Positions 5,253-19,567 of a DNA stretch of 26,044 bases are shown here, in pieces (the first letter of the stretch is position 1; each line of letters starts with the position of its first letter). This stretch comes from a virus. The DNA lies in the IMG/VR virus record IMGVR_UViG_3300034280_000202, positions 1-26,044 of that record; one strand, written 5' to 3'. A program made the position numbers and the translations under genes. The notes under the pieces are model-generated. The model was given only the letters and a program-made list of their open reading frames with translations, was not told the DNA's origin and did not search any database.

Positions 5253-7042
5253 GACACGGTCACCAGTTTGGAACCTTTGGCCGTGTTCTCAGCAATTTTT
5301 TGCTGCAGTTCCAAGTTTTTCGCATGCAGCTTCGCGATTTCTTGTGTGTGCTTCTGGGTTTGGTCAAGAATCTTGTTCGTCTTGTCCATCGGGTCCGAGC
5401 TGCGCCCACTAGTTAGCAGTCGTGATTCGCTGGCCATCAATGGCCCGGTTTCTTTTGGCTTCTCCATTGGGCCTTTGTCTTTTTCCAGTGCGGATTCTGC
5501 GGCAGCCAGTTTCTTCGCTGTGGCCTCGTCGACGCCCTGATTGATTAACGCCTGAGCCTTTGCTGCTTCCTTGCCCTGTTCAGCTTCCAGTTTTTTGAGT
5601 GCCAGTCGTTCCTGTTCCGCTTTCACTAGATCAGCGATACGCTGTTTTTCTTTGGCCGCCTCCTGTGCGTTTGTCTCTTCGGCTTTCGCTTTATCCTCTT
5701 TGGCCTGCAATGCCGATTCAGTGGCCGCCAGCTGTTTTGCCGCTGCTTCCTCAACGCCCTGTGCAATTAACGCCTGCACTTTTGCAGCCTCTTTGCCCTG
5801 CTCTAATTCCAGAGCACGCAACGCAAGCCGTTCATTTTCCGTGCGAACGATACCATCGATTCGATCGCGTTCCCGCTGCGCGTCCTGAATCGCTTTCTCT
5901 GCTGCTTTGGCTCGCTCCTCTTCAGCACGCTTCTGAGATTCTTCCAGCTCCTTCTGTGCTTCGGCTTTGGCAAGAATCGCGTCGCGTTCCTTCAGCAATC
6001 GCTCTGCTTCTCCGCGATCCTCGATGGTCGTGTTGCGAGCAGCATCCAGCAGCAACTGTTCTTCTTTAGTTGCTGCAAGGTATTCCACTTCCTGTTTCAG
6101 CTGGGCGATGTACGCCTCTGATTTGTCCTTCGCTTCGTTCGCTTTGGCGAGTTCTTCATTTTGCCGAGTACGCTCTGACGTGATCTTCTGCAGTTCGTCG
6201 CGTTCATCCCGCAGTGCCGCCAGTCTGGCTTTGTCGTTTTCCAGTTGTTCCTGAGCCTGTATCGCGTATTCTTTACGATTGCCGGTGATCTGCCAGGAAT
6301 CCGCCCAATCGTCAACCGCTTTTTGTGACACGGTCACGTTTTTACTGACTGCGTCGATGTCTTTGTTCAGCGTGTCCAGCAACGCTTTGTACTCGGCCCG
6401 TTTCTTGTCCGGATCGCGAATGAGTTCGATATCCTCTTTCGCGTTCTCCATCATTACAGAGCGAGTTTTTTGCAGCCGGTCTTCCAGTTCCTTGGATGCT
6501 TCTTTTGCTCGTTCCAGTTCGCGGGTGAATTTCTTTGTTTCAAAAATCACATCGCCGATCGCTTTACCGATAGCCGAACCGATAGTGGCGGCCAGTGCGA
6601 CCAGCCCGAGCTTAAAGGCGAGTGCTCCGGCTTTGCCGGCTTTCGACACCTCGCCGAAAGAACTGATCTTTTCCGTTGCTCCCGCCAGTTGGGAAGCGAA
6701 GTTGCCAAGTTCTGTGTTGCCGGTCAGCTGTGCCAGAGTTCCAACCAGCTCGGTCGTTTTCTTCGCGTTGCCGCCGACGTCCTTCATAGCTGCGCCGGTG
6801 TTATTCATCTTGCCGCTTATTTTGTCCTGAGCTGCGGCGAACTGTTCTGCTGACAACGCACCATCGCGGTGCAACTGGTTCAGTTCTTCCAGTTGTTTTG
6901 CGTACCTGTCGGCAGGTTCTTCGAGACCGGACAGGATTTGATTCACTCGCTTGAGTGACTTGTCCATGTTCTCCGCAGTCGTCGCGAACTTCTGCGACGC
7001 CTGGTCGTCAGCTTTGATAAGTATTTCGACTGCTTCGCTCAT
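5249..7042 (-). CDS. Tail tape measure protein
   Basis: This 597-residue protein sets tail length and is ejected with the DNA in siphophages. Residues 1-95 are helical. About 136-167 is a hydrophobic, Ala/Gly-rich stretch (LAFKLGLVALAATIGSAIG) typical of tape measures. About 170-470 is strongly charged heptad-like helix rich in Glu, Lys, Ala and Arg. Two related segments, residues 394-447 and 468-521, repeat with a 74-residue period. The gene follows the G/GT chaperone pair, overlapping it by 35 bases, and precedes the distal tail genes, which is the canonical place. It is short for the family. The general tape-measure rule of roughly 1.5 angstrom per residue would give a tail near 90 nm. Confidence 0.85.
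   Translation of the reverse strand: MSEAVEILIKADDQASQKFATTAENMDKSLKRVNQILSGLEEPADRYAKQLEELNQLHRDGALSAEQFAAAQDKISGKMNNTGAAMKDVGGNAKKTTELVGTLAQLTGNTELGNFASQLAGATEKISSFGEVSKAGKAGALAFKLGLVALAATIGSAIGKAIGDVIFETKKFTRELERAKEASKELEDRLQKTRSVMMENAKEDIELIRDPDKKRAEYKALLDTLNKDIDAVSKNVTVSQKAVDDWADSWQITGNRKEYAIQAQEQLENDKARLAALRDERDELQKITSERTRQNEELAKANEAKDKSEAYIAQLKQEVEYLAATKEEQLLLDAARNTTIEDRGEAERLLKERDAILAKAEAQKELEESQKRAEEERAKAAEKAIQDAQRERDRIDGIVRTENERLALRALELEQGKEAAKVQALIAQGVEEAAAKQLAATESALQAKEDKAKAEETNAQEAAKEKQRIADLVKAEQERLALKKLEAEQGKEAAKAQALINQGVDEATAKKLAAAESALEKDKGPMEKPKETGPLMASESRLLTSGRSSDPMDKTNKILDQTQKHTQEIAKLHAKNLELQQKIAENTAKGSKLVTVS
5480..5863 (-). repeat. Internal tandem duplication in tape measure gene
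   Basis: Codons 394-447 (5702-5863) and 468-521 (5480-5641) encode related segments 222 bases apart. Shared elements in both copies include ERLAL, EQGKEAAK, QALI, QGV and ESAL. The copies differ at many positions, so the duplication is old. Confidence 0.8.
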
Positions 7043-7367
7043 TCGCTACTTTTCTCTCTTCGCTTTCGAAGAACTGAACAGCGTCGATAAAACTTGCTGA
7101 CTGATCCAACACACCACCACCGATCGGCGGCATCCCTTTCCCGAACAGGTCTATCAGGTCAATTGACGTCACAATCGACCGACAGTAACCGTTCGGGCAT
7201 CCCTCAACAGTAAACACTCCGTCCTGACAGTCCTCACACCCGCCACCGTTGCATGACGGGCATTCGATTTCCAGCAGGTTCGGTTTCTCGCTGATGTCTC
7301 GACACTGGCCACGGGTGCAACTTCTACAGATCATTCCGCCCCGTATCAGCGCCGCTACTCTGTACTT
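7008..7367 (-). CDS. Tail assembly chaperone T extension, cysteine-rich, reached by -1 frameshift
   Basis: This frame lies -1 to the upstream G-type gene and stays open from the slippery A-run (7366-7374) to the stop at 7008. It also has an ATG at 7334, which would give 108 residues alone, but by analogy with lambda G-T it is expected mainly as the C-terminal part of a 235-residue GT fusion. In siphophages the T part recruits the tape measure and G binds tail tube subunits. Counting from Met 7334, cysteines lie at 3, 6, 11, 25, 28, 33, 36, 46 and 51, with CPSC, CEDC and Gly-rich spacers. This resembles a DnaJ-type zinc domain. The rest is acidic and ends just inside the tape measure gene. Confidence 0.75.
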   Translation of the reverse strand, partial: KYRVAALIRGGMICRSCTRGQCRDISEKPNLLEIECPSCNGGGCEDCQDGVFTVEGCPNGYCRSIVTSIDLIDLFGKGMPPIGGGVLDQSASFIDAVQFFESEERKVANERSSRNTYQS

Positions 7368-7714
7368 TTTTTTTCGTCCTGTGTGATGTGCTGGTTGTAC
7401 ATTGCCTTTCGAAGTACTTCCCGAGCCTCGCTATACGTCAACACGTCCCGCAATGCGTCCGGAGTGAACTCCATCCCGTTCATGTGCTTCCAACCGACAA
7501 CAACGGTGGACAACACTTTGCAGGTTTCGTCAAATAGATCGGCAATTGAAACGTCATCATCCTTTGTCCACAGTTCAAGAACCGTCCCGATAGATTGCTG
7601 GCCCCGCATGGACTGCGACCGCGCAAAGAACGTCGGCCTGCTGTCTGCTGGCTTGTTTTTGTCGGAGTCCAGTACGATTGGGTACTGCTGACCCGGTTCC
7701 AACGCGAGTGGCAT
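7355..7714 (-). CDS. Tail assembly chaperone, G-like
   Basis: This 119-residue soluble, mostly helical protein lies between the tail tube and tape measure genes, the fixed position of lambda gpG and its equivalents. The start ATG (7714) follows GAAAGAG closely, and the previous gene ends nine bases upstream. Its last codons run through nine A residues (GAA AAA AAA AGT) before the stop at 7355, which gives a canonical A AAA AAA slippery heptamer for producing the longer GT form. Identity rests on position, size and the frameshift signal rather than on a sequence motif. Confidence 0.8.
   Translation of the reverse strand: MPLALEPGQQYPIVLDSDKNKPADSRPTFFARSQSMRGQQSIGTVLELWTKDDDVSIADLFDETCKVLSTVVVGWKHMNGMEFTPDALRDVLTYSEAREVLRKAMYNQHITQDEKKSTE
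7367..7373 (-). promoter_or_regulatory. Programmed -1 frameshift slippery site (A AAA AAA)
   Basis: On the minus strand the G gene reads GAA AAA AAA AGT, so the zero-frame heptamer is A AAA AAA. Slipping back one base gives AAG TAC AGA GTA and continues without a stop through the ATG at 7334 to 7008. A -1 slip between the two tail chaperone genes is a conserved feature of siphophages. I did not find a definite downstream pseudoknot by eye. Confidence 0.8.
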
Positions 7715-7722
7715 AAACTCTT

Positions 7723-8649
7723 TCAGTCAAAAGCAATAGTAAGTTCTGTGTCTGCACTGCTGCCCTGTGTCGCCAACCATGTGAGGTTGTCAACCATCAT
7801 GTCAGAGCGATTGCCCTGCTGTTTGTTTTCAAGTTGGGCCTTCGGTGCTGCAATCGTGATTGAAGAACCAGAGGAACCGATCTGCATGGAAAACGCCTGA
7901 GCGGTCGGAGTTAACCAGAGAGAATCTCGGTCTTGCGTTGCCACAAGCACGGACTCTGGATCCGCTGTGATTATTGGTGCCCGGTTCGTGACCAGAGCCG
8001 ACACGTATCCAGAACGGTCAGTGGCGTTGACACATTCCCGCATGATCACGCTGTTGCCTGCGTCTACTTCGACGTTCGACGTGCAAAGTGCAACACTGTT
8101 CCACGTCAGAGCACCCGCTGCAAATCGCAGCGGGGAAACAGTCGGATAGGTCGGAGCAATGAGGGCTGTGTCTGTTTCGTTGCTGGAGTACTTGCCCGTG
8201 AAGGTAAACTCAATGTAAGCAACCTTGCCAGTCGGGCAAACGATTTTCCACGTGCCCATTGCACCGGACAACAGCGTGCGTTTTCCGTCTTTGTAATGAC
8301 CGATCGTCAACGTTTTAACGTTGCTGCCTGGTCCTTCGGACTTCGGAGAAAACGTTCCGGCGGCATCCACCCATCCACATGCAGGTAGCAGTACACTGGC
8401 CCAACTTGGGATGTCTGTGCCGTTGTACGTAAGATCATGAATGATGGTGCATGAGCCTGTCATGCCTTCGGCAATGCTGGTCAGGTAGTTAAACCCGCCC
8501 TGACCTTCACGCCGAGTAAATGCGACGTTGGGCTGAATCATGAAGTCGCGAGCGTTGTAAACGCCTTCAGCACCGGTCAATGATTCGGCTGTTCCAATCG
8601 TCGTTTCCGTCTTTGCAGCGAATACCGCGCGACGTCTGAGCAATGGCAT
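7723..8649 (-). CDS. Major tail tube protein
   Basis: This 308-residue beta-rich protein starts at an ATG preceded by AAGGG nine bases upstream. It opens with MPLLRRRAVFAAKTETTIGTAESLTGAEG, cut here to the recognisable AAKTETTIGTAE. Starts of the form 'K.E.t.GT' are common in phage tail tube subunits. The middle carries a KVAYIEFTFTGKY strand pair of the tube-fold type. It comes after the Z-like minor tail gene and before the G/GT chaperones, matching lambda gpV. Hundreds of copies would stack as rings to form the tail tube. Confidence 0.75.
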   Translation of the reverse strand: MPLLRRRAVFAAKTETTIGTAESLTGAEGVYNARDFMIQPNVAFTRREGQGGFNYLTSIAEGMTGSCTIIHDLTYNGTDIPSWASVLLPACGWVDAAGTFSPKSEGPGSNVKTLTIGHYKDGKRTLLSGAMGTWKIVCPTGKVAYIEFTFTGKYSSNETDTALIAPTYPTVSPLRFAAGALTWNSVALCTSNVEVDAGNSVIMRECVNATDRSGYVSALVTNRAPIITADPESVLVATQDRDSLWLTPTAQAFSMQIGSSGSSITIAAPKAQLENKQQGNRSDMMVDNLTWLATQGSSADTELTIAFD

Positions 8650-9743: not shown

Positions 9744-10096
9744 ATCAGCACCAGCATTCCCTCGTCATGCTCGGTCAGCATCTGCACCGATACTTTCCGA
9801 GCTGTTTCGCCGATACGTGGTGCCAGTTCGATCTGATCACCACCGGTATCAAGTTCTGCACTCGTGATCCCAGTGGTGACGTTGTTCGCAACTCGCACCT
9901 CAAATTCAGTCAGAATCTGCTCGTCCGGATTGAACGTGGCCACCTGATTGCGGGTGACGACAGCCTTGATCGTTCGTGGCTGTCGCACCGCAGCAGTGTG
10001 GAACCGATGCGGGTGGTATGTGACTGTTTCAGCGAAATGCTCGCTGTTCAGAAACACTGTGCCCGCATCAGTTACAATCCGGCCTGCAAGACTCAT
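9734..10096 (-). CDS. Head-tail joining protein, FII-like
   Basis: At 120 residues it is close to lambda gpFII (117). It contains the pattern HFAETVTYHPHR followed by IKAVVTRNQV, reminiscent of head-tail joining proteins of that family, and a beta-rich C-terminus. Its start overlaps the stop of the decoration-like gene in an ATGA arrangement (10093-10096), and it is followed by the tail terminator candidate. The expected role is to join the filled head to the tail. Confidence 0.6.
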   Translation of the reverse strand: MSLAGRIVTDAGTVFLNSEHFAETVTYHPHRFHTAAVRQPRTIKAVVTRNQVATFNPDEQILTEFEVRVANNVTTGITSAELDTGGDQIELAPRIGETARKVSVQMLTEHDEGMLVLICR

Positions 10097-10743
10097 CGAC
10101 GTGACACAACCTTCACATAGTCGACTGTCAGCGCGTCTGTGTTGCTGTCGCTGGTCTTCTGAATCTGAAAGATTGGCTGCAGCCCGGATGAATACGCTGA
10201 CATCGTGAACGTTTCAGTACCGACCTTCACACCGTCAATGTAAAACTTGACGTCGGACTTGCCGCCGCTGAAATCGATCACGAATCGTTTGTATGTCGAA
10301 CTGAGCGAGACGCCTGTCGCGTTATCGTCATTGTCCGTTGTTCCATCGTCGGTTTCGACGACGACTGCATTGCTACCGGCCAGTTTGAAAAACGCATTGG
10401 CTGCAACAGTGTCCGGATCATCCGCACGAGCCGAACCGAGGCCCATCACAATCGTTGTTGCACTGTCGAGAGTGGCGGTAACCTTTGCCCGGAATTCCAT
10501 ACGAATGATGGAATCGATATCAAAGTCCAGAGCGTCGTTGAAATGCAAGCAGACGTTTTCAACTTCCGTCGTGGATGCCAGCGTCAACGTCGCTTCGCTG
10601 GTGCCCTTTGTATAGGTCGGAGCACCGGAGCTTGATGTGTCATCTACCAGCCAAGCTGTGGCTGGATCCGCTGACGTCGGGAAGGCCGCCACTGCCCCGT
10701 TGAAATCATCATAGAATTCCTGAAAATCCTGAATACCAGCCAT
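10093..10743 (-). CDS. Jelly-roll (LamG-like) head or decoration protein
   Basis: This 216-residue acidic, beta-rich protein starts with MAGIQDFQEFYDDF. The stretch around residues 75-95 (FDIDSIIRMEFRAKV) and the later KRFVIDF, KFYIDGVKVG strands match the concanavalin/LamG jelly-roll style. It follows the capsid gene after a terminator and precedes the head-tail joining gene, where many phages keep capsid decoration or cement proteins. AAAGG lies about nine bases before the ATG. Decoration is inferred; carbohydrate binding is equally possible for this fold. Confidence 0.6.
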   Translation of the reverse strand: MAGIQDFQEFYDDFNGAVAAFPTSADPATAWLVDDTSSSGAPTYTKGTSEATLTLASTTEVENVCLHFNDALDFDIDSIIRMEFRAKVTATLDSATTIVMGLGSARADDPDTVAANAFFKLAGSNAVVVETDDGTTDNDDNATGVSLSSTYKRFVIDFSGGKSDVKFYIDGVKVGTETFTMSAYSSGLQPIFQIQKTSDSNTDALTVDYVKVVSRR

Positions 10744-10855: not shown

Positions 10856-13090
10856 TCATGCACCGTTGTGCTTGTACAGACCACGGTAATCAATCGCAGC
10901 AACACCGAACGTCTGACGAACCTTGTTCTTGTAGACGTCCTTGTCGAAGTCCCATTCAGATTCAAGAACTGGAGACTGTTCGCCTTCCAAAAAGGTAATT
11001 TCCACGGTGTCGACCTGGCTGTTGTTCGCTGCCAGGTACCATGCCGTTGAACTGTTGGCGTCGAGCAGTGGCTCAACGATAACTTTCAGCGGTCGGTCTC
11101 CGTTTGGTCCGTAGATGTTCTTCGTGTTGCTGTTACCAGCGGCAGAACCACCAACAGACGGATCCGCAATAGATCCCAGCAATTGCAGTGCAGTTGCGCT
11201 GATAGCCGCTGGCACAATCAGAAATGCAGGCTGAATGTTCAGAATGACGTCTGAACGCAGCCCCTTCTTCGTCATCATGCTGATGTACGCAGTGTTCAGA
11301 GTGGAAACACTCGGAGCACCGGCACCAGTCGCATAGTTAGCGTGACCGCCTGTAGTGGTTTGTGCTGTCGCATTGAACAGCAACCCGGCATCGGCCATTG
11401 CTGCATTGGCAGTCAATACACCATATACCGCCTGATTCTGCAGACGTCGGCAGGCGGCTCCCTGCATTGCAGGGATACGGCTGATCGCGTCCAGATCATC
11501 ATTCACAACGGTTTCCCATGTGATCGTGAACATGTTGCCGTATTTGTTGACTTTGTAGGATTCCTTTGCATCGCTCATCGCTGCGTCGGGATATTCCTTG
11601 CCTTCCGGAACCATTTCCGGTGTGCCCATTTCACTGAAGCGAATTCGATTCAGTGTCTTGAAGTCGCTGGTAGTTCCCGCATCACGTGCCCACATCGACC
11701 AGGTATAGGGAGCTTCCTCGTATCCAGCCAGAAGGGTCTTGTTTGCCGCATCCAGCAGCAGGTTCGCGAAACTGCCGGTCGTGTGGTACGCATCACGCTG
11801 GATTCGGAACCGGTTCATCGACCCCGGGTGACCCATTGCCACAAGTGCGATGTCTTTCGGAGCCATCCGGCGAACATCGCAACCCATCTTTTCAGCGTAC
11901 ATTTCAGCCATGCGGCTGAGCTTCATGTTTACGAAGTCCTGATGTCCTTCAGCCGGTTTTGTTACTGCGGCACTGCGAATGCCGCCCTGTCGGAACGTTC
12001 GCATGATCAGGCCATCTCTGGCCGCTGCAAATAACTTGTCGTCAGCAGATTCGGTTAATGCCACTCTGTCGGAACTCTGTCCAATCGGTGTTGTTGCCAT
12101 TTTTTGTAGGATCCTTGCTCGTGCTGTGTTGAGGTCAATGCCTTCATCGCAGAGCGAGTCGGCAAACGATCGTTCGATTTTGTGCTGAGAACACAACGCC
12201 TGAATTTCTTTGCGCCGGGTCTGGTCTGCTTTCGCGTAAGCTTGAATGGCTCGTGCGATGGACTTTTCCACAGTCTTTGGATCCTCTTCAGTTGCAGCAA
12301 CTGGTGCGGCTTCGCTCGCTGGTGCTGCTGCTGAATCGGCTGCCATCACCTTCTTTGCGGGATCTTCCGTCATGGAGTTTTCCACCATGTCTTCTGCCTC
12401 TGGCTCGGTGTCTGGCTTCATCTTGCCGACAACCCAGGAGAGAATCTGATTCGGATCGACCATGCCTTCAGGAAGTCCCATTGCCGTAAGCTGGCTCAAC
12501 AGTGCCTCGTCCATTCTCTCAACCTTTCTTTCGAGGTCTGTATACGACCTGCGTACTGTGGAAAGTTCGTCTGCACCAGTAGCACAGATCGAAGCGTTAT
12601 GCGGCTGCCATCGCGTGTGGATAACTGCCGGACCATCGATAACAGCCCCGCGACTTGTCGTAAATGACTTACCGTGAGGAATGAACAGTGATTCAAGAGG
12701 CAGAGCGGTGATGGAAAAGTCAGTGATATGACCTTCATTCATTCGCTGGCAAATCAACTGAGCTTCCGGATCACTCGCAAAACTGGGAGTTCCGTGTAAC
12801 TCGCCATTGACTACCTGCAGACTGCGGACGCTGCCGAAGATGTTCCGCACCGTGGAATCGTCATGCGAATCGACAATCGGAATCTGAGCTTGATTCGTGC
12901 GGAGAACAACGCCTTCCATCAGCAGTACTTCGCTGATGACATAGCCACGCTCTTCGTCGTAACGCCGTACCGGGGTCTCTGTGGCGATCACCACATCAGA
13001 TACACCGTTTCCGTACCCGACCGAGCGCAGAACAACGCTTGTGCGTTTCGCTTTCGGTATTGTTGGAAGTTTTCCCGGCTTACGTGGCAT
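10856..13090 (-). CDS. Prohead protease / scaffold / major capsid fusion protein
   Basis: This 744-residue polypeptide combines three parts. Residues 1-175 look like a caudoviral prohead serine protease: VDSHDDSTVRNIFGSV holds the likely catalytic His76, and DFSITALPLESL holds the likely Ser126. Residues about 180-345 are acidic, Ala/Glu-rich and helical, as expected of a scaffold. Residues about 350-744 resemble a Mu gpT/HK97-fold capsid, with RFSEMGTPEMVPEGKEYPD and later KVNKYGNMFTITWETVVNDD. Maturation presumably releases the capsid part by self-cleavage. The gene overlaps the portal stop by 11 bases and ends just before a strong hairpin. Confidence 0.85.
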   Translation of the reverse strand: MPRKPGKLPTIPKAKRTSVVLRSVGYGNGVSDVVIATETPVRRYDEERGYVISEVLLMEGVVLRTNQAQIPIVDSHDDSTVRNIFGSVRSLQVVNGELHGTPSFASDPEAQLICQRMNEGHITDFSITALPLESLFIPHGKSFTTSRGAVIDGPAVIHTRWQPHNASICATGADELSTVRRSYTDLERKVERMDEALLSQLTAMGLPEGMVDPNQILSWVVGKMKPDTEPEAEDMVENSMTEDPAKKVMAADSAAAPASEAAPVAATEEDPKTVEKSIARAIQAYAKADQTRRKEIQALCSQHKIERSFADSLCDEGIDLNTARARILQKMATTPIGQSSDRVALTESADDKLFAAARDGLIMRTFRQGGIRSAAVTKPAEGHQDFVNMKLSRMAEMYAEKMGCDVRRMAPKDIALVAMGHPGSMNRFRIQRDAYHTTGSFANLLLDAANKTLLAGYEEAPYTWSMWARDAGTTSDFKTLNRIRFSEMGTPEMVPEGKEYPDAAMSDAKESYKVNKYGNMFTITWETVVNDDLDAISRIPAMQGAACRRLQNQAVYGVLTANAAMADAGLLFNATAQTTTGGHANYATGAGAPSVSTLNTAYISMMTKKGLRSDVILNIQPAFLIVPAAISATALQLLGSIADPSVGGSAAGNSNTKNIYGPNGDRPLKVIVEPLLDANSSTAWYLAANNSQVDTVEITFLEGEQSPVLESEWDFDKDVYKNKVRQTFGVAAIDYRGLYKHNGA

Positions 13091-18449: not shown

Positions 18450-18869
18450 TCAGCTTTGGTACGCTGCGACCTTTCTACACATCGCAATAAACTGGTCTTG
18501 TGCCATCGTGGCCTTAGCCGTGTTGGCGTCGATGTGCAACCATTGCAAGTTCTCAATGATATCTGTGCCGCCTTTTGACACCGGAACAATATGATCTAAC
18601 CGTGCTGTTTGTGGTGTTAACTCAATGCCGGTGAGAGCACATCGAAACCCTTGCGTTTTTAATAATTGCATCAACTCATTTGCGGTCGCGTGGTTTTTCT
18701 TCTTCTTCTTCTCTTTGCTAACGAACTCACAGCATTCAGTACCTTGCGATCCCACGGATCGCGTGAGTTTTTCCTTATTGTGGCGATCATCTGTTTCATT
18801 TGCCCTGCTATCAAACCACTCCATTTGCTGCACTTCTCCCTCCGTGTTACATGAATCATGGGTTCGCAC
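18450..18869 (-). CDS. HNH endonuclease domain (3' part of frameshifted AP2-HNH gene)
   Basis: The C-terminal half holds an HNH nuclease: FRCALTGIELTP, then LDHIVPVSKGGTDIIENLQW with the catalytic-type His and the Asn, and HIDANTAKATM as the last metal/DNA element. The frame is -1 to the AP2/zinc part upstream and fuses naturally near the A-run at 18694-18698, where a sixth A would restore one 372-residue protein. If translated separately, ATG 18824 with GGAGAA nine bases upstream is a better start than ATG 18869, giving 124 residues. HNH nucleases beside terminases either aid packaging cuts in HK97-like phages or act as homing enzymes; the AP2 partner favours homing. Confidence 0.75.
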   Translation of the reverse strand: MRTHDSCNTEGEVQQMEWFDSRANETDDRHNKEKLTRSVGSQGTECCEFVSKEKKKKKNHATANELMQLLKTQGFRCALTGIELTPQTARLDHIVPVSKGGTDIIENLQWLHIDANTAKATMAQDQFIAMCRKVAAYQS

Positions 18870-19567
18870 CTACTAACTAAACACACCACTGCAGCGTTGC
18901 AACGTTTCTTCCATTCAGTTTGTTTTGCTGCAGATACACTGTTGCGTTGCGTGACACATATCTGCACCCATTGATTCGCATTTCTTCTTTCCTGCGAGCG
19001 ATCCCTATACCATCGCTGCTTCACCTGCGACACATGTTGCTTCCAACGCCGCTCCTGCCCGTCCATGTGTTGTTGGCTCGCAGCCCATGTTCGCTGACAC
19101 GTAATAGAGCATGCAGCATTTGTTGTCGTGTCATACCGCCTTAAAGGATTTCCACATATAACACATGACATGATTTTTGTGGTTCGCGATCTTCCCTTAT
19201 GCCCACATTCTTTGGAACAAACGACTTGGCGTTTATCCATTGTGTTTAAAGGCTTGCCACACACTTTGCATGGTCGGTTTTTGAGTGCTTCTCTCCCTAC
19301 TTGTCGTCGTTTTAAACCGCACTCTTTGCAGTCGCATTTATTCCAGTGAAACTCCTTGCCCGCTTTACCAGTTTTTCCACACGAACTACATGTTCTTATC
19401 GCTCGTTGTGCAATTGGCAGTGTTGGCCACACCTCAGCAGATCGGTTTTGAGCTTCCTCTAATGTCCTGAATTGGCCGAACTGTTTTTGCTTTCCGTTGA
19501 CACGAAACACAACACGCCATCGCTGTTGCTGTTCGTTCCAGTGACAACCACGATGCCTTCCAGTCAT
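18671..19567 (-). CDS. AP2 and zinc-ribbon DNA-binding part of AP2-HNH homing-type nuclease (frameshifted)
   Basis: This reading frame encodes 298 residues. Residues 4-46 match the AP2 DNA-binding fold (GRHRGCHW, WRVVFRVNGKQKQFGQF, LEEA). Three cysteine-pair ribbons follow: C60/C63 with C80/C83, C100/C103 with C117/C121, and C135/C138 with C153/C157. The rest is basic, with PWDRKVLNAVSSLAKRRRRRK near the end, after which the sense continues in the -1 frame as an HNH domain. The last few residues before the stop at 18671 are therefore probably not native. The ATG overlaps the stop of the preceding tail gene (ATGA at 19564-19567). AP2-HNH proteins are known as mobile homing endonucleases. Confidence 0.75.
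   Translation of the reverse strand: MTGRHRGCHWNEQQQRWRVVFRVNGKQKQFGQFRTLEEAQNRSAEVWPTLPIAQRAIRTCSSCGKTGKAGKEFHWNKCDCKECGLKRRQVGREALKNRPCKVCGKPLNTMDKRQVVCSKECGHKGRSRTTKIMSCVICGNPLRRYDTTTNAACSITCQRTWAASQQHMDGQERRWKQHVSQVKQRWYRDRSQERRNANQWVQICVTQRNSVSAAKQTEWKKRCNAAVVCLVSRCEPMIHVTRREKCSKWSGLIAGQMKQMIATIRKNSRDPWDRKVLNAVSSLAKRRRRRKTTRPQMS

Follow-up and report, generated by a model that had tools for sequence, protein, structure and literature searches.

A conserved eight-cysteine, probably zinc-binding domain in the T part of a predicted G–T tail assembly chaperone of a phage from IMG/VR

Results

A tail gene cassette on the minus strand

The window analyzed here is the whole 26,044-nt stretch of the IMG/VR virus record IMGVR_UViG_3300034280_000202 (positions 1 to 26,044). 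In transcription order, its cassette consists of genes for a portal (PHROG_21, E 1.9e-102), a capsid-protease fusion, three small proteins, a tail completion protein (PHROG_27, E 5e-16), a presumed tail tube protein, G, T and the tape measure protein (Table 1). T lies between the presumed tube gene, which it adjoins by way of G, and the tape measure gene.

Table 1 Features of the tail chaperone region and its neighbors in the window
Feature	Position	Strand	Remarks
Tape measure protein gene, 597 aa	5249..7042	minus	overlaps the 3′ end of T; PHROG_3336/1272/1538, E 8e-4 to 6e-3
T ORF from its ATG, 108 aa	7008..7334	minus (7334 to 7008)	C-terminal half of the predicted G–T fusion
C-terminal part of T	7011..7181	minus	LFxKGxPPxxGGxLDQSxxF motif and predicted long helix
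Cysteine-rich domain	7182..7328	minus	C-x2-C-x4-C-x13-C-x2-C-x4-C-x2-C-x9-C-x4-C; first eight Cys invariant
Pre-ATG stretch of the T frame, YRVAALIRGG	7335..7364	minus	in the T frame, translated only after a frameshift
Slippery A9G run, read as GA[A AAA AAA] AGT in the zero frame	7365..7374	minus	−1 shift leads into the T frame
Gene G, N-terminal part of the tail assembly chaperone, 119 aa	7355..7714	minus	ORF; weak PHROG_313 match, E 8.5e-4; alignment A4
Presumed tail tube protein	7723..8649	minus	upstream of G; PHROG_290 ‘minor tail protein’, E 1.4e-10; tube role inferred from gene order
Capsid-protease gene, 744 aa, joining a protease to the major capsid protein	10856-13090	minus	PHROG_4523, E 9e-125

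A first-pass annotation, made from the sequence alone, had placed the T part of a tail chaperone at 7008-7334 without naming a strand. The ORF does exist, and it lies on the minus strand; on the plus strand, stops interrupt the reading at these positions.

Conservation was followed in 83 loci, which are the window and 82 related IMG/VR loci. In all 70 relatives with enough sequence downstream of T, an ORF of 314-643 aa starts between −103 and +4 nt of the T stop, and 64 of these ORFs are closed by a stop. The downstream ORF was picked by position and length alone, as the longest with its start in the interval of −120 to +200 nt around the T stop.

Probable fusion of T to G by a −1 frameshift

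The 3′ end of G reads ...GAC GAA AAA AAA AGT ACA GAG TAG. The −1 frame is open through the A9G run and joins G, as it reads KKKYRVAALIRGG-MICRSC... into the T ORF. A peptide of the predicted G–T fusion would span ...DEKKKYRVAALIR.

The A9G run is kept in 79 of the 83 loci. Counted by distinct T sequences, 57 of 61 have it, as do 24 of 28 representatives that are <85% similar. In 21 further loci, A9G is present in 8 and a run of eight A in 13. The G stop is located +1, +7 or +16 nt past the slip in all of the 82 loci except L105, and the T frame stays conserved.

Selection on the ten codons between the slip and the ATG was assessed in 13 pairs. In 8 pairs, dN is 0 with dS ranging from 0.25 to 1.55. 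In the other 5 pairs, dN is above 0; dS is undefined in three of them, and dN values of 0.21 and 0.05 stand against dS values of 0.74 and 1.01 in the remaining two. Judged by these substitutions, selection maintains the protein sequence that the ten codons encode in the −1 frame. Furthermore, no ATG occurs between the slip and the cysteine domain in 29 of the 83 loci (27 of 61 distinct T), and none of ATG, GTG and TTG occurs there in 14 of the 83 loci (14 of 61 distinct T).

Because the stretch before the ATG is selected in the −1 frame and there are loci without an ATG, a G–T fusion is the most likely form in which T is produced, through a putative frameshift. Nine A's could also permit transcriptional slippage, and the shift at A9G could be either ribosomal or caused by transcript slippage on the A run. 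Downstream of the slip, no clear stimulatory RNA structure was found, as the mean z was −0.95 versus −0.47 in the control, with z ≤ −2 in 6 of 26 loci downstream and in 3 of 26 control stretches. No Rfam family was found at 6900-7800.

In four of the eight-A loci (L196, L197, L217 and L253), G ends inside AAAAAAAATGATG with its stop overlapping ATGATG. On these sequences, it is possible that T is started there by re-initiation, instead of or besides frameshifting.

Profile support for G itself is weak, in that the PHROG_313 family ‘Tail assembly chaperone’ is matched by 4 of 19 G members, and a Pfam scan of G gave no relevant match. The assignment of T to a G–T tail chaperone in the first-pass annotation is supported by the conserved slip run, the conservation in the −1 frame and the tape measure gene that follows directly.

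An invariant cysteine pattern in T

The T ORF has cysteines at residues 3, 6, 11, 25, 28, 33, 36, 46 and 51; residues 25-28 form a CPSC motif, and residues 33-36 are CEDC. The nine cysteines noticed earlier in the first 51 residues, together with these two motifs, are thus read directly from the translation. The binomial chance of nine or more cysteines in 51 residues is 8.8e-9, when the background is taken from the 20 other minus-strand ORFs of the window (1.18% of 7529 aa). The richest 51-aa stretch in these 20 ORFs, when concatenated, has 7 cysteines. The neighboring proteins have few, 1 in G and 0 in the tape measure protein.

Invariance across an alignment is a firmer proof of a cysteine domain than such a count. 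Alignment A3 has 49 members, the window T plus 48 out of 60 distinct T found in the 82 loci; the 12 left outside were 8 near-duplicates and 4 sequences cut by contig ends. Although identities to the window T reach down to 35%, eight of the nine cysteines are invariant in 49 of 49 members. The ninth (C51 in the ORF, C61 in the fusion frame) is present in 45 of 49. At the conserved cysteine codons, family members switch between TGT and TGC.

Viral contigs were also searched with a C-terminal motif that contains no cysteine, LFxKGLPPxxGGxLDQSxWF, and the best 80 of 136 relatives were kept. From these, 77 loci were cut anew, many of them on contigs already in the set, and 21 had a new T. The cysteine domain was present in 21 of these 21. 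The remaining 56 of the 77 loci close with the final 50 residues of T sequences in which the domain had been seen before. The 21 new T sequences thus show that the cysteine domain and the C-terminal part of T travel together, within a motif search that favors near relatives.

The T of L099 (L099:4537-4893) is divergent, having a loop between the CxxC pairs that is ten residues longer and two exact CXXCXGXG motifs. It is the most DnaJ-like member seen in the family.

Comparison with other tail chaperones

The lambda gpG/gpGT system has the same gene order of G, T and tape measure, a −1 frameshift close to where G ends, as predicted here, and a T that is a low-abundance C-terminal extension, as described in PMC5009743. 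On the other hand, lambda T has 0 cysteines, and the slip run differs, being A9G here. No profile match linking lambda T and the window T was found. The T proteins of HK97 and TP901-1 are also unlike the window T, with 1 cysteine each and no CxxC.

It had been claimed that such a domain is not typical of T. This holds for lambda, HK97 and TP901-1 (0, 1 and 1 cysteines, no CxxC). In the Rhodobacter phage RcKemmy (L264:11992-12339) and the Nostoc phage Nsp-JY21 (L271:1441-1830), by contrast, the T frame has a C-x2-C-x3-C-x2-C knuckle, which lies early in the −1 frame. These knuckles are four clustered cysteines rather than the eight-cysteine pattern, and their flanking motif is another one. The Nsp-JY21 frame has one further cysteine upstream of its knuckle.

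The RcKemmy chaperone was reached via the capsid-protease gene, and its annotation joins the two frames as a frameshift product. The Nsp-JY21 fusion is our reading of the frames, whereas the record lists two separate genes. When RcKemmy T was used in tblastn, 13 records were matched, 11 from Rhodobacter, 1 from Synechococcus and 1 from Nostoc. Because of the knuckles in the Rhodobacter and Nostoc phage T frames, cysteine knuckles in T are not unique, and the eight-cysteine form is a new variant.

In a tblastn search of 50,697 GenBank phage records, there was no match to the window T, the window G, or the T of L098, L101, L104 and L105. Bacterial genomes scanned with alignment A1 gave 245 matched pattern stretches, none of which was confirmed, and no host was assigned.

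Among the open-licence papers listed by the literature searches, none had a title or abstract beginning on zinc or cysteines in tail chaperone T, and none was listed on the C-x2-C-x3-C-x2-C knuckle of RcKemmy and Nsp-JY21. In the excerpted parts of PMC2628397, PMC5313236 and PMC10580944, the zinc or DnaJ-like domains belong to different genes, not to the tail chaperone. The words ‘zinc’ and ‘cysteine’ are absent from the main text of PMC8601537.

Structure prediction

The AlphaFold2 model of the T frame had a pLDDT of 83.9 and a pTM of 0.76, and the block means over the cysteine part were 84-92. When the cysteine domain was predicted alone, the pLDDT was poor at 53.5. The domain may need the flanking helices to fold, as far as these models indicate.

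The T model was compared with known structures. Foldseek against PDB returned 18 rows with a best E of 2.3, and the best E against BFVD was 0.95, so neither search gave a match at E 0.001. A VIA-align comparison found nothing, the best Z being 2.3.

Probable zinc binding and the proposed role of T

Eight strictly conserved cysteines make zinc binding by the T domain very probable. Invariant cysteine ligands in sets of four, the generic mark of zinc domains, are present here as the eight cysteines of 49/49 members. The eight obligatory cysteines probably form two Zn(Cys)4 sites, a stoichiometry that we infer from the pattern.

We consider it likely that the ORF supplies the T half of a tail assembly chaperone of the siphophage type, with a probable two-site zinc domain, made as G–T by a −1 shift and recruiting the tail tube. 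This reading starts from sequence-level facts, namely the ORFs, the slip run, the −1-frame selection, the cysteine invariance and the gene order. A minority of ribosomes (or slipped transcripts) would shift −1 at A9G to yield G–T, and the rest would yield G. The T half would be composed, in order, of a short helix, the eight-cysteine zinc-binding domain, a helix, the LFxKGxPPxxGGxLDQ motif and a long helix.

The later steps are modeled on lambda. There, the tape measure is bound by G and by the G part of G–T, whereas the partner of the T domain is the major tail protein, which T may recruit, according to PMC5009743 and PMC4493119. By this analogy, T would bind the tail tube protein; many G and few G–T would coat the tape measure via G, and T would recruit the tube subunits. 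Zinc most likely staples the small T domain so that it presents a tube-binding surface, which would be a structural role and not a DnaJ-like folding of substrates.

That the same T domain uses its cysteines for redox, disulfide or iron-sulfur chemistry, and not for structural zinc, is rather improbable. CxxC-x4-C and CxxC-x4-CxxC spacings are typical of zinc knuckles, and those of T are of this kind, although the variable ninth cysteine leaves one cysteine spare. In addition, tail chaperones work in the cytoplasm, and gpG/gpGT are absent from mature lambda virions, as stated in part of PMC5009743.

Relation to the DnaJ zinc domain

Another possible origin of the T cysteine domain is capture of a true DnaJ central domain by the phage, which would act on the unfolded tape measure protein. 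We find this very improbable. The likeness itself is real at the level of the motif, as T contains CPxCxGxGC and Gly-rich spacers, and in common with the DnaJ central domain (PF00684) it has CxxC pairs with Gly spacers and eight cysteines. However, DnaJ has four CXXCXGXG repeats, and the window T has only one (CPSCNGGG), the rest being CRSC-x4-C, CEDC and the lone C46 and C51. The two exact repeats of L099, and second knuckles that are more DnaJ-like in L101 and L104, come closer.

With a single sequence in phmmer, the E. coli DnaJ zinc domain (1exk) was hit at E 0.17. The Pfam model PF00684 (DnaJ_CXXCXGXG) matched 2 of 49 T members with a best E of 0.52, and it matched neither the window T protein nor anything else in the whole window. 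No J domain was found in Pfam scans of T and G.

For comparison by hhalign, a DnaJ set of 71 distinct zinc domains was assembled from 80 of 81 fetched genes showing four repeats. Since the set consists of close relatives of E. coli dnaJ with identity of at least 70%, the DnaJ profile is narrow. The hhalign probability was 14.6% for the cysteine domain, and that of the whole T against the DnaJ zinc domains was 23.3%. When columns were permuted with the cysteines fixed, only 3 of 150 permutations reached the real score, but 8 of 150 scored as high when the C, G and P columns were all kept.

When the family profile was compared with PDB, the best match was the cysteine motif of phenylalanyl-tRNA synthetase (PheRS) alpha at E 7e-4, and DnaJ was absent among the 3 rows. 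PheRS alpha (PDB 4p71, 2rhq) has the same C-x2-C-x4-C-x2-C followed by G, and the profile match extends over 30 residues. It is, however, an unrelated bacterial enzyme with only local motif likeness.

The profile comparison with the DnaJ central domain that had been proposed as a check therefore yielded no significant match, with either PF00684 or hhalign (14.6%), and such scores as were obtained can largely be put down to spacing. Of the proposed DnaJ-like zinc domain, the motif likeness (CxxC, Gly spacers) and the very probable zinc binding stand; descent from DnaJ is not supported, given one repeat and no significant profile match.

The first-pass annotation had further reasoned that T binds the tape measure, for which a borrowed protein-folding module would be an adaptation. 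In the lambda model, at least in the excerpts of PMC5009743, the tape measure is bound by G, and T binds the major tail protein. Because lambda T binds the tail tube protein and not the tape measure, a borrowed folding module acting on the tape measure is unlikely. In short, T resembles the DnaJ zinc domain in motif, and on the sequences compared ancestry is not demonstrable. Given the DnaJ-like motifs in L099, L101 and L104, a very old link to DnaJ is possible.

A precedent for reuse of DnaJ-like zinc motifs in a protein-binding protein is anti-TRAP, a small protein with such motifs that binds another protein (PMC2896485). Anti-TRAP differs in having two CXXCXGXG motifs, in forming trimers and dodecamers and in not being a tail protein. 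Its family PF15777 had weak, non-significant matches in 10 of 49 T members at E up to 10, the best E being 0.093.

Several other Pfam families were matched by T members, weakly and without a common theme. IBR was matched in 29 of 49 (best E 0.0083), the coronavirus NSP13 zinc-binding domain in 5 of 49 (best E 1.4e-4) and adenovirus E1A in 5 of 49 (best E 0.0033), and all three were read as chance likeness in cysteine spacing. PHROG_25876, a family of unknown function, was matched in 41 of 49 (best E 5.4e-4; window ORF E 0.99) and also in 4 of 14 control genomes, which was taken as a shared cysteine motif.

It is hardly credible that T is instead a small zinc protein independent of G, with translation beginning at the ATG at 7334 through internal initiation or re-initiation. 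In favor of it, an ATG precedes the cysteine domain in the window, as at 54 of the 83 loci, and an ATGATG overlaps the G stop in four further loci (L196, L197, L217 and L253). Against it are the −1-frame selection before the ATG, the loci that lack an ATG or any start codon from slip to domain, and the long A runs kept across loci. It is possible that some free T is made in addition to the G–T fusion.

Implications of the eight-cysteine T

Little is understood of how T, within a tail chaperone, takes hold of the tube protein, and the eight fixed cysteines of the G–T chaperone provide a compact, testable handle. Point changes at the named cysteines should separate G–T stability from tube recruitment. 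The family also provides a signature for tail chaperones in uncultured phages, which is eight or nine A, then xRxAAxIRxGxLCxxC...GCPN...LFxKGLPPxxGGxLDQ.

On a wider view, the eight-cysteine T might represent a class of tail chaperones with zinc-dependent tube recruitment, in which the zinc or redox state licenses tail polymerization, and the knuckles of the Rhodobacter and cyanobacterial phages might be its reduced form. We regard this extension as unlikely, though conceivable.

Other genes of the window

Remote relatives of the capsid-protease fusion occur in 115 GenBank phage records, none of them reaching 60% identity. The gene next after it in the head-tail cassette (10093-10743, minus strand) has a match to a concanavalin A-like lectin domain, Pfam Laminin_G_3, at E 5.6e-5 and 23.8 bits, which is under the curated cut-off of 27.6. 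Farther away, a gene at 18671-19567 on the minus strand encodes a 298-aa protein with 19 cysteines and 4 CxxC, the N-terminus of which matches the HNH endonuclease families PHROG_99/PHROG_4578 over only ~36 residues.
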